Source of the DNA: Gloeobacterales cyanobacterium ES-bin-313
GTDB taxonomy: Bacteria > Cyanobacteriota > Cyanobacteriia > Gloeobacterales > Gloeobacteraceae
Reading direction: 5' to 3'
Assembly (NCBI GenBank): GCA_014379585.1
Contig: JACMLN010000024.1
Span: forward strand, 1 to 64,000
Length of the DNA: 64,000 nucleotides
The notes below the pieces were generated by a model. It was given only the letters and a program-made list of their open reading frames with translations. It was not told the DNA's origin and searched no databases. Shown in pieces: positions 15,543 to 22,018 of this stretch. The translations under genes were made by a program, and so were the position numbers. Positions within the stretch are counted from its first letter, which is position 1. Each line of letters starts with the position of its first letter.

Positions 15543-16307
15543 GTGTCTCTGTTTAATCGCGTTACCCTACAAACCCCCGAAAGTGTTGAACTGGAGTTTC
15601 GGCTGGCTGGGGCTGGTAGCCGCGCCCTCGCTTTGGTGATCGACTATGTGATCTGGGGAGCACTGCTCTTCGTCCTTGCCCTTGCTTGGTTCTTCACTGC
15701 GGCAGTTCTGCCTGAAGCCGTCCAACAGTTCTACGCTGCCATCAGTTTATTTATTCTGTTTGCAACCTACGTTGGCTATTTTGTTTTCTTTGAAACGCTT
15801 TGGCGTGGTCAAACCCCTGGTAAGCGCCTCACCAAAATCCGGGTTGTCCGCGAAGATGGCCGCCCCATTGGCCTAACTCAAGCACTGCTCCGTGCCCTCC
15901 TGCGCCCCATCGACGATCTGTTCTACCTGGGTCTGCTGTTCATTTTGTTTAGCAAGCAAGAAAAACGCCTTGGGGATATAGCCGCTGGCACTCTCGTCAT
16001 CGAAGAGGGCTCTGCCGATGCCAAAGCACAGATCGAGCTTTCTAATAATGCGCAGGCTTTGGCCAGAGAACTTCTAGAAACGGGAAATATTGTCAAACTT
16101 TCGCCTGACGATTTCGCGACAGTTCGGGAATTTTTAAAGCGCCGGAAGAACCTTAGCCCTGCAGCCCGATTATCACTCAGCGATAAACTCGCTGGCCAAG
16201 CTGAAAAACTTTTGGACATGCAAGAAACTCCCCTGAACGTCGTTCCTGAGAGTTTTCTTGAAGCGATTTACTTGGCCTACCAACAGCAGTCTCAAGCTCG
16301 TAATTAA
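15543..16307 (+). CDS. RDD family membrane protein
   Basis: A 254-residue protein starting at a GTG five bases after the previous stop; the frame remains open far upstream inside the neighbouring gene, which is discounted. The RDD domain (residues about 10-155) has the typical AGAGSRALALVIDYVIWG start, a GQTPGKRLTKIRVV loop after the second helix, and a third helix pair. The C-terminal 100 residues are cytoplasmic and helical, with no known motif. RDD proteins are sometimes linked to ion transport, but the function here is unknown. The gene is convergent with the cytochrome b6 / subunit IV-like pair and overlaps it by 4 bases. Confidence 0.88.
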   Translation: MSLFNRVTLQTPESVELEFRLAGAGSRALALVIDYVIWGALLFVLALAWFFTAAVLPEAVQQFYAAISLFILFATYVGYFVFFETLWRGQTPGKRLTKIRVVREDGRPIGLTQALLRALLRPIDDLFYLGLLFILFSKQEKRLGDIAAGTLVIEEGSADAKAQIELSNNAQALARELLETGNIVKLSPDDFATVREFLKRRKNLSPAARLSLSDKLAGQAEKLLDMQETPLNVVPESFLEAIYLAYQQQSQARN

Positions 16308-16708
16308 TGCAAAAGAATCGAAACACCAAGAGCAAGAACGCCAAGATGAATGGCGGTAAAGATCACCCGTGCAGTGACCTCACCACCAGGCAAGTACTTG
16401 TCTAGGTTGGGCAGCAGAGGCAGGGCAAACAAAGAGACTGGAATCGTGCTCATGACCATTAAGCCAATCAGCTTAGTAGGCATGGCCTTAATGATGGCAA
16501 AGGCCGGAAGCATATACCACTCAGGAATCACTTCTGGAGTAGCAAACACATCGAACATGTCGATAAGACGAGGCGGTTGAAGAATCGTAAGAACGAGGGT
16601 AAGTGCGATACATGCGAGGGCAACGATCGCTAAGTCAAAAGCTTGAAGGTTAATCGAACCTGCAACCTTAGTTTCAGATGAGATCTGCTTTTTTTGCGGC
16701 GTATACAT
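16304..16708 (-). CDS. Subunit IV (PetD)-like protein, divergent second copy
   Basis: A protein of about 134 residues starting at MYTPQKKQ; the start overlaps the upstream cytochrome b6-like gene by 35 bases in another frame. It has the PetD/cytochrome b C-terminal layout of three membrane helices. The quinol-site PEWY motif is kept in VIPEWYMLPAFAIIKAMPTK, with LIGL following, to compare with [19 protein letters not shown] in the canonical petD of this window. Outside that motif identity is low. With its partner it would form a split cytochrome b. No Rieske or cytochrome f gene is adjacent. Membrane location is certain from the helices; the role is unknown. Confidence 0.85.
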   Translation of the reverse strand: MYTPQKKQISSETKVAGSINLQAFDLAIVALACIALTLVLTILQPPRLIDMFDVFATPEVIPEWYMLPAFAIIKAMPTKLIGLMVMSTIPVSLFALPLLPNLDKYLPGGEVTARVIFTAIHLGVLALGVSILLH

Positions 16709-17255
16709 GTGACACCATTGCCAAAACAGTGAAGAGCGGAAGAACAATCGTATGTAACCAGTTGATGCGGGCGATGCTTAAGGTGCTGATACTGCTGCCG
16801 TTGAGCAAGAAGCCCTTGACAGCTGCACCGAGGACAGGCACGCCGTTAAACAAATTTGCTTCAATCGCCAATCGCCAGTAAGCATTCTGGTCGAGTGGCA
16901 AGTAGTAGCCCGTGATGTTGCCACCGAGGAGCATCAGCCCCAGAAGCAATCCAGACCACCAAAGCCACTTGGCAGGGCCACGGAAAACCCCAAACCAGTA
17001 GGCCAGGGTCGTAAACAGCAAGCTGCAGATCAATGCGAGGGAGCTAGACCACCAGTGGAGTCCACGGATTGCCCAACCGAAGTTCACCCCTTCCGTGATG
17101 GTTTGGGTGGCTTTGTAGGCATCCATGGACGGGACAAAGTTGGCTGCTAGCAAGGTTCCGGTGAGCAGGGCAAGTGCCATGAAGGTGATCGTTGCCGTCG
17201 AAAGGTAGGGCCAAAGCTTCTTGAAAAAATCTTGAGATGGATTTGTAGCAACCAT
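16674..17255 (-). CDS. Cytochrome b6-like protein lacking the Cys35 and one heme b_n ligand equivalents
   Basis: A 193-residue four-helix protein related to PetB, with a strong ribosome site (GGAGG, 8 bases upstream). Aligned by hand to the petB product of this window, His67 and His168 match the heme b_p ligands His86 and His187, and His183 matches His202. The position of His100, the other heme b_n ligand, is Phe81. The position of Cys35, which covalently holds heme c_n (c_i), is Tyr17. Other marks are kept (TG at 32-33, VNFGWAIRGLHWW, NITGYYLPLDQNAYW). Both losses concern the stromal-side heme pair, so this is probably not a canonical b6f subunit. It is co-transcribed with the subunit IV-like gene. 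Confidence 0.88.
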   Translation of the reverse strand: MVATNPSQDFFKKLWPYLSTATITFMALALLTGTLLAANFVPSMDAYKATQTITEGVNFGWAIRGLHWWSSSLALICSLLFTTLAYWFGVFRGPAKWLWWSGLLLGLMLLGGNITGYYLPLDQNAYWRLAIEANLFNGVPVLGAAVKGFLLNGSSISTLSIARINWLHTIVLPLFTVLAMVSHVYAAKKADLI

Positions 17256-17422: not shown

Positions 17423-18349
17423 GTGAAACCTGAGCCGCTCCTCAATTTTGTCCAGATCTCCGATACCCATCTGCGTCCAAGTGGAAGCCCGTCGGGGTGG
17501 TGGCTATCGGACGATCCAGAAGATCTGTTACGGAGCGCCGTCGCCCGCGTCCAACGTTTAGGCAATGTTGATTTTGTGCTGTTTACTGGGGATCTTTTTG
17601 ATCGTGCCGAGGCGGCTGCCCTCGATCAATTTCTTGAGATTGTTCAGGATCTGCCCTGCCCCTACCATGTCGTTGTTGGCAACCATGATGTCGTCGCCAA
17701 GCCTTGGACGGGAAGGCTCACCAAAGCCAGTTTTGCAGAGCGTCTCAAGTTGCCGACAGAACTGTATTACAGTGTGGCGATCAAACCAGGGTACCGCTTG
17801 ATTGTTCTCGATACTGTTCCTGATCAATTTCCCCATGCCCAGGGCCGACTGCCCCAAGAACAGATGGACTGGCTACGTTGGCAGTTGCTCGTCTATCGAG
17901 ATGAAGTCGTGGTGATTGGAGTACATCATCCGCCGATTGCCCCTGCCTACTTTCGTGATTTTCGCCTGAATCCTGACGATGGCATCCAGTTTGCTGAGTT
18001 GATTGCCGCTTCTCCCAATGTTGCAGCGGTGCTCAGTGGCCACCTCCACGTGCCGAGGCGTTGGAGCTATCGGCGGCGGCCTTTCTTTAGTGCCCCCTCC
18101 CTCGGTGGCCCTCCAAATGCCTTCCGTCACTTCCGTCTCGAAGTCTCTGCAACCGTAGCCAGACTTCGCTACGACTGGATACCGGTCAAAAGTGGCGAAC
18201 GTCGCCGCCCTCTTTGGTATCCCCTTGCCGCTGGCACCCTTAAAGATCGCCGTGGCCGCTATCGACTCTCACTGCCAGTACTGGGCATCGGTGGCGGCAA
18301 GCGCCTCCGACTTCGCCTCAGAATCAAAAAATTGGGCGCAGTTTCCTAA
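17423..18349 (+). CDS. Calcineurin-like metallophosphoesterase (Icc/CpdA type)
   Basis: A 308-residue cytoplasmic phosphoesterase starting at GTG. All two-metal-site motifs are present in order: QISDTHLRP (about residue 11), FTGDLFDRA, VVGNHDVV, GVHHPPIAP and LSGHLHVPR. This pattern is shared by 3',5'-cAMP phosphodiesterase CpdA and related nucleotide or phospholipid phosphoesterases; substrate cannot be decided from sequence. A basic C-terminal tail (RLRLRLRIKK) is unusual. The gene is divergent from the cytochrome b6-like gene and convergent with a small exported protein gene. Confidence 0.9.
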   Translation: MKPEPLLNFVQISDTHLRPSGSPSGWWLSDDPEDLLRSAVARVQRLGNVDFVLFTGDLFDRAEAAALDQFLEIVQDLPCPYHVVVGNHDVVAKPWTGRLTKASFAERLKLPTELYYSVAIKPGYRLIVLDTVPDQFPHAQGRLPQEQMDWLRWQLLVYRDEVVVIGVHHPPIAPAYFRDFRLNPDDGIQFAELIAASPNVAAVLSGHLHVPRRWSYRRRPFFSAPSLGGPPNAFRHFRLEVSATVARLRYDWIPVKSGERRRPLWYPLAAGTLKDRRGRYRLSLPVLGIGGGKRLRLRLRIKKLGAVS

Positions 18350-20866: not shown

Positions 20867-21346
20867 TTAGAACAGACCCAAAGTCAAAGACTTTGGAATA
20901 TCCGCAAAGACTGCACCAGCACCGAGGTAGAAAGTCACCAGAGCACCGACCAAGAAAACTGTGGTGGCAATCGGGCGGCGAAAAGGGTTCTGGAACTTGT
21001 TGACGTTCTCGATAAAAGGCACAACAGCCAAACCAAGCGGAATCGCCAGCATCAACACAACGCCCAGCAACTTATTGGGGACGGTGCGCAGCATCTGGAA
21101 AACCGGGTAAAAGTACCACTCTGGCAAAATATGGCCAGGAGTTGCAAATGGGTCAGCGGGTTCGCCAATCTTGGAAGGATCGAGAACAGACAAGGCAATG
21201 ATGCTTGCGATCGTTCCGAAGATCACGACACCGAAGATCAAAATATCGTTCGGCCAGAAAGGTTCGCCGTAGGTATTGTGGCCCATCCCCTGTTCTAGTA
21301 ATTCGAGAATTTCGGGATCGTCCAACTCGGGGCGCTTAAGCGGCAT
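20867..21346 (-). CDS. petD: Cytochrome b6f complex subunit IV
   Basis: A 159-residue, three-helix subunit that forms, with cytochrome b6, the quinol-oxidising core of the b6f complex in the photosynthetic membrane. The N-terminus ([20 protein letters not shown]) is typical. The Qp-site motif [13 protein letters not shown] and the following VPNKLLGV are intact. Length matches the family. It lies 24 bases downstream of petB, with a GAGAG-rich ribosome site, and ends at a strong terminator. Confidence 0.97.
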
Positions 21347-21370: not shown

Positions 21371-22018
21371 TTACAGGGGGCCAGAAATGCCCTGCTTGCG
21401 GATCATCAAAAAGTGCATCAGCATGAACGTCGCCGTCAGCCAAGGTAGCACGAAAGTATGAGCGCTGTAGAAGCGTGTAAGAGTCGCTTGTCCGACCCCA
21501 GCACTACCGCGCAGAAACTCAACAATGAACGTACCAACAAACGGGATGGCGCTAGGTACTTGGGTAACAATCTTCACTGCCCAGTATCCGACTTGATCCC
21601 AGGGAAGGGAGTAACCTGTGACCCCGAAGCTCACTGTTAGGCAGGCCAGCAAAACGCCGGTCACCCAGGTCAGTTCACGGGGACGCTTGAAACCACCCGT
21701 CAAATAGACACGGCAGGTGTGCAAGATCATCGACAACACCATCATCGAAGCGGACCAGCGGTGAATCGAGCGAATCAACCAGCCAAAGTTCACTTCATCC
21801 ATGATGTAGCTTACGGAAGCGAAAGCTTCTGCGACCGTAGGTCTGTAGTAATAGGTCATTGCGAAGCCAGTCGCAAATTGAATCAAGAAACAGATGAGAG
21901 TAACGCCACCCAGACAATAGAAGATATTGACGTGGGGAGGGACGTACTTGCTTGTAACATCGTCCGCAAGTGCCTGAATTTCCAAGCGCTCTTGAAACCA
22001 GTCGTATACCTTACTCAT
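21371..22018 (-). CDS. petB: Cytochrome b6
   Basis: A 215-residue, four-helix subunit. All cofactor residues are present: Cys35 for covalent heme c_n, His86 and His187 for heme b_p, His100 and His202 for heme b_n. The conserved segments [12 protein letters not shown] and [15 protein letters not shown] are intact. This is the functional copy, in contrast to the divergent pair at 16.3-17.3 kb. The operon order is petB-petD. The region upstream is shared with the divergent Rrf2 regulator gene, but no operator could be assigned. Confidence 0.98.

Follow-up and report, generated by a model that had tools for sequence, protein, structure and literature searches.

In the cytochrome b6f complex, His100 of cytochrome b6 (PetB) is a ligand of heme b_n, while Cys35 anchors heme c_n. 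In subunit IV (PetD), the residue nearest to the iron of heme c_n is Phe40 (PMC12112970). The CCB proteins chaperone heme c_i of b6 and deliver it, and CCB1 belongs to the system that attaches this heme to Cys35 (PMC3555230). In the bc1 complex of Rhodobacter, the H212N mutant has been described as a knock-out of heme b_H (PMC4807273). In the H198N mutant, in which one ligand of heme b_L is replaced, a high-spin heme stays in place and turnover is not supported (PMC8138165). Here we analysed a stretch of 64,000 nucleotides (the window) from the Gloeobacterales cyanobacterium ES-bin-313, which encodes, apart from a canonical petB-petD pair, a second pair of b6-like and subunit IV-like genes, called petB2 and petD2. 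No prior description of PetB2 and PetD2 was found in the open-access literature searched; they may have been noticed earlier elsewhere.

The petB2 gene (16674-17255, minus strand) is an open reading frame for a cytochrome b6-like protein of 193 amino acids (Pfam PF00033, E=7.9e-30). Inspection of the upstream sequence revealed a ribosome-binding-like GGAGG immediately 5′ of its ATG. The petD2 gene (16304-16708, minus strand) encodes a subunit IV-like protein of 134 amino acids (PF00032, E=6.8e-10). Its most likely start is the ATG at 16706-16708, so that its first 35 nt are also the final ones of petB2, and both this inferred start and the overlap are the same in relatives. The canonical petB (21371-22018, minus strand), with all ligands present, and petD (20867-21346, minus strand) served as the reference from the same genome. 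They lie about 4 kb away, a closeness that is not kept in other Gloeobacterales genomes, and their products pass the NCBIfam cutoffs for cytochrome b6 and subunit IV. Divergent from petB2 is a gene for a calcineurin-like phosphoesterase (17423-18349, plus strand). It adjoins petB2 in all six Gloeobacteraceae genomes and not in those of the other two families, and we do not claim it as a member of the module. Besides petD2, no conserved operon partner was found across the order, the phosphoesterase being confined to the Gloeobacteraceae.

PetB2 is 30% identical to the canonical PetB of the window over 176 amino acids (BLASTP, E=8e-29). In this alignment both heme b_p ligands are kept, with H67 (codon at 17055-17057) and H168 (16752-16754) matching His86 and His187 of PetB. 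The second b_n ligand, His202, is kept as H183 (16707-16709), the codon of which overlaps the ATG of petD2. The other b_n ligand, His100, is replaced by Phe81 (17013-17015), and the heme c_n anchor Cys35 is replaced by Tyr17 (17205-17207; all codons on the minus strand). This is the ligand pattern that had been claimed by an earlier, sequence-only reading of this DNA, which had left room for a better alignment that restores the lost histidine. No such alignment exists: the ligands are spaced by 14 and 15 residues, the same and without gaps, in all sequences spanning the region, be it PetB, PetB2, an outgroup cytochrome b or a member of B3, a further b6-like family treated below. Moreover, histidines are missing from the roughly 7 residues on either side of position 100 in all PetB2 and B3 proteins. 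Both facts together rule out a realignment that restores His100.

With 104.5 bits, PetB2 passes the gathering score of PF00033 (27.2 bits). On the NCBIfam cytochrome b6 model it reaches 108.7 bits, under the cutoff of 325 bits, against 376.5 bits for the canonical copy. Structure prediction was carried out on single chains without heme. AlphaFold gave a confident b6 fold for PetB2 (mean pLDDT 90, pTM 0.83), and the model superimposes on Nostoc PetB (4ogq, chain A) with a TM of 0.85, so that the four-helix b6 fold of the PF00033 superfamily is predicted for this protein. PetD2 was modelled as three helices with low confidence (pLDDT 69), and this model was left out of placement.

PetD2 keeps the PEWY motif (16514-16525, minus strand), which marks the p-side quinol site of subunit IV and putatively does so here. 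The motif had been noted before and is present in all 8 PetD2 sequences. The position of Phe40, next to heme c_n, is L26 in this protein (16631-16633, minus strand) and Leu, Ile or Val in 8/8. The segment YGEPxWPND is absent, and the score of 60.4 bits misses the cutoff of TIGR01156 (127.05 bits). In addition, PetD2 has a histidine, H121 (16346-16348, minus strand), that is invariant in all 8 proteins and, in a gap-free alignment, falls on Thr137 of spinach subunit IV. The b6f chlorophyll is ligated by a water that is presumably held by Gly136 and Thr137 of subunit IV. A His-ligated chlorophyll in PetD2 is a lead only.

The losses in PetB2 go beyond the two ligand positions. The C-terminal GISGPL of PetB and most n-side contacts are lost, the helix-A position Gly37 is occupied by Ser or Ala, and Arg103 and Arg114 are gone. 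We compared the positions that are invariant in PetB and six outgroup cytochromes b (n=36), dividing them into p-side and n-side by helix boundaries that we set ourselves after the b6f structures. By this presumed division, PetB2 keeps 16 of the 20 p-side positions and 5 of the 16 n-side positions (Fisher p=0.006). Among the n-side positions that survive are His202 (H183) and Gly121 of helix C (G102), both of which are invariant. Judged by its sequence, PetD2 has independently lost n-side features as well, namely Phe40 and YGEPxWPND. The earlier claim that both losses hit the n-side is thus borne out and widened, since it is chiefly the n-side that is eroded, in PetB2 and PetD2 alike.

Orthologs of PetB2 (57-71% identity) were found in 8 of the 9 sampled genomes of the Gloeobacterales, an order to which Gloeobacter-type genomes belong. 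An ortholog with 72% identity is present in DNA recorded as Aphanocapsa lilacina HA4352-LM1. None was found in the 381 other sampled genomes of the class, where the best matches are about 30% identical. PetD2 occurs in the same 8 genomes. In two of these (G083 and G061), petD2 is a long way from petB2 or on a different contig, and this joint retention without linkage argues that both proteins work together. The ninth genome (G094, 93% complete) has neither gene, a joint absence that could be real or due to an assembly gap.

All 8 PetB2 proteins have Phe at position 81 and His at positions 67, 168 and 183. Position 17 is Tyr in seven of them and Met in one. Of the two replacements for which conservation in homologues had been asked, the Phe is therefore fixed, while the Tyr is conserved in part. 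The situation in which homologues keep His100 and Cys35 and the gene in the window is a lone decaying copy was not encountered, as all 8 orthologs have Phe and none has Cys. We also rejected the idea that H183 is kept only through the overlap of its codon with the petD2 start, because this histidine is found without exception in B3 as well as in the two genomes with an unlinked petD2 (G083 and G061).

Profile searches of 242 sampled genomes of the class identified the B3 family in 59; it was not found in Gloeobacterales. B3 and PetB are clearly separate by profile score (about 245-370 against about 125 bits). Among the 47 B3 sequences read, Cys35 is present in none, position 100 is Gln in 44 and Asp or Glu in three, and His202 is found in all. 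His86 is kept, as is His187 in all but one sequence, and Gly135, Tyr136 and Pro139 are lost. By contrast with these families, His100 is present in all sampled canonical PetB that span the position. Gly37, His100, Arg114, Gly121 and His202 are found in each of the 12 outgroup cytochromes b, which come from other phyla or from non-oxygenic members of the phylum. The lesion shared by PetB2 and the widespread cyanobacterial B3 family is, as far as it can be read from the sequences, newly found here.

In our trees, PetB2 and B3 are sisters outside all PetB (support 98/95, or 87/91 when the outgroup was broadened). Each of the two has a long stem, and alternatives to the sister grouping were not rejected by AU tests (p 0.09-0.32). 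The PetB clade of the class, Gloeobacterales included, excludes PetB2 (support 89/88 and 97/97). A phylogeny against PetB and PetD had been proposed, and that against PetB places PetB2 outside the PetB clade. Since PetB forms a clade without PetB2, a recent duplication of the petB of the window is disfavoured.

Several further observations were made on B3 and on more distant relatives. A cation/proton antiporter-like gene stands beside B3 in 12 loci (L121, L122, L125, L127, L129-L132, L134, L138, L143 and L145). The B3 proteins of two families have an N-terminal extension of about 100 residues with no Pfam match, and a gene for a PadR-type regulator stands beside N-extended forms in 8 loci (L157, L159-L164 and L167). 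One in-frame stop is present in a few B3 genes (G155:C5, G148:C1 and G161:C5), suggesting loss in some lineages. An equivalent of PetD2 was not found in B3 genomes. Extra PetD-like matches in G025 and G054 were rejected as such equivalents, being copies of the canonical type; these second petD genes (L215:1387-1869 and L216, respectively) lie beside an AraC-like regulator, and the copy in G054 is apparently truncated. Non-oxygenic members of the phylum (L172, L174, L175 and L176) have split b6-like cytochromes b with all four heme ligands and Thr or Trp at the Cys35 position. Plasmid relatives were not counted as family members: they are ordinary bc-type cytochromes b, with His100 in 6/6 examined closely. 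One of them, on a Pannonibacter plasmid (L202:2011-3282), is a complete-length cytochrome b gene next to the chromate resistance gene chrB, with no Rieske gene nearby.

Taken together, we consider it probable, at roughly 60%, that PetB2 and PetD2 are an old and functionally specialised relative of b6 and subunit IV that serves as a p-side quinol-interacting module beside b6f and does not run a standard Q-cycle. The pair would form a membrane core of four plus three helices with one low-spin bis-His heme b_p on the p-side, beside a quinol pocket made up of PEWY and the GYxLPxDQ segment. Heme c_n would be absent. The b_n site would be broken, being either empty or occupied by a single high-spin heme that is five-coordinate, with H183 as its only histidine. 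From quinol or semiquinone on the p-side, electrons would then reach b_p and not take the normal b_p-b_n-c_n-Q_n route, and with a broken b_n site and no heme c_n a standard Q-cycle would not be possible through PetB2. Most likely, the module would exchange electrons with, sense or restrain p-side quinol in association with the ordinary b6f machinery. For the cofactor content, the binding of quinol, the lack of a Q-cycle and the association with b6f, we infer from known chemistry together with the sequence.

No Rieske or cytochrome f gene was found on the 71-kb contig, in agreement with the earlier statement that none is nearby. The petC-petA pair is located on contig C5 of the same genome, where one clear petC-type Rieske gene (187 aa) adjoins the single petA, not near petB2. 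This genome has no b6f-type Rieske protein or cytochrome f other than these canonical ones, and a second cytochrome f scoring over the family cutoff was not detected in any genome of the order. Having just one petC-petA set to share would suit an alternative b6f core, in which PetB2 and PetD2 swap for PetB and PetD around the single PetC and PetA and quinol electrons go to plastocyanin without n-side recycling, as in a naturally broken Q-cycle. The retained Qp-side features and PEWY fit this idea, and bc1 mutants in b-heme ligands are still assembled and have their other cofactors inserted (PMC4807273, PMC8138165). However, PetB2 has just 30% identity to PetB, with GISGPL and most n-side contacts lost, and petB2 and petD2 are not linked to petC or petA, which makes such a swap unlikely in our view.

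The n-side survivors bear on another alternative. Because H183 and G102 do not vary although the n-side is mostly eroded, a five-coordinate high-spin heme b_n is as compatible with the data as none, and going by these two residues there could be an unusual but working n-site. A five-coordinate heme on H183 might then provide PetB2 with a new ligand-binding or oxygen/NO-reactive site. The universal His202 in the B3 sequences read points in the same direction, as does the bc1 mutant H198N, in which a high-spin heme is held with one histidine (PMC8138165). The exchange of Gly37 for Ser or Ala and the loss of Arg103 and Arg114, on the other hand, suggest that the pocket may be closed, and we hold a new reactive site to be doubtful.

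CCB1 is a single-copy gene in all 9 Gloeobacterales genomes. In G083, the only copy of the genome (L046:8275-8823, minus strand) is located 43 bp downstream of petB2. As PetB2 of G083 has no Cys35, this link, if meaningful, concerns b6f maturation in general. The adjacency, together with the role of CCB proteins in heme c_i delivery (PMC3555230) and the co-existence of canonical PetB with PetB2 in every genome that carries PetB2, would be in line with an assembly, heme-handling or regulatory protein of b6f in which the b6 fold would serve as scaffold or dimer partner and not as an enzyme. It was seen in one genome of eight, however, and a pure scaffold would not obviously keep PEWY and the b_p ligands; we find this role improbable. 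In G094, which also lacks petB2 and petD2, the only CCB1 copy (contig C124, L223 around 1492-2040) has one in-frame TAG, maybe an assembly error.

For close, unsaturated pairs, dN/dS was 0.09-0.19 for petB2, 0.08-0.18 for petD2 and 0.00-0.03 for petB; more distant pairs were saturated. Hence petB2 and petD2 are under purifying selection, which is weaker than on petB. In-frame stops were absent from all 8 PetB2 and all 8 PetD2. The two signs that the sequence-only reading had named as speaking against it, elevated dN/dS and stops in relatives, were thus looked for and not found. A functionless, decaying petB/petD duplicate, to which the long branches and the in-frame stop in a few B3 homologs elsewhere might point, is ruled out for practical purposes by dN/dS well under 1, the stop-free genes and residues that are invariant across three families. 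The proposal that the pair is not a spare b6f subunit stands, given an old divergent pair of paralogs with a fixed Phe, selection and n-side losses.

A specialised p-side module in Gloeobacterales raises the question of what role a one-sided cytochrome b plays in the earliest-branching, thylakoid-less oxygenic phototrophs, and as Gloeobacter-type genomes carry petB2, it is amenable to testing. Two cyanobacterial families without His100 that are nevertheless conserved indicate that a two-heme path across the membrane is not the sole use of the fold. As a speculative scenario, which we would not bet on, a b6 paralog might have branched off close to the base of living cyanobacteria or earlier, shed the n-side path and kept the p-side heme. 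In Gloeobacterales, the new histidine of its quinol-site partner might ligate a tetrapyrrole (chlorophyll or heme) at the position of the b6f chlorophyll, which would yield a natural p-side-only module, with B3 as a partnerless descendant elsewhere.

Set against known systems, PetB2 and PetD2 represent a variation within the cytochrome b family and not a system of a new kind. PetB2 shares with PetB the four-helix fold, the b_p histidines, the p-side core residues and about 30% identity, whereas it has none of His100, Cys35, Arg103 and Arg114, is truncated at the C-terminus and falls outside the PetB clade. PetD2 resembles subunit IV in its three predicted helices, PEWY and the PF00032 match, but is without YGEPxWPND and Phe40, has an extra invariant His at the Thr137 position and scores under the NCBIfam cutoff. 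The NCBIfam model on which PetB2 scores best is ExtP (NF040969), a b-type cytochrome of selenite/tellurite operons, yet with 111.7 bits it stays far under the 290-bit cutoff. B3 proteins lack His100 and Cys35 and keep His86 and His202 just as PetB2 does; they differ in the loss of Gly135, Tyr136 and Pro139, in having neither a PetD neighbour nor a paired PetD2 and in occurring in other cyanobacteria, not in Gloeobacterales. Finally, the Rhodobacter bc1 mutants H212N and H198N likewise have one b heme damaged by losing one His ligand (PMC4807273, PMC8138165). Those mutants were made in the laboratory, whereas the loss in PetB2 is natural, old and conserved, making PetB2 a natural counterpart of the b_H/b_n knock-outs.
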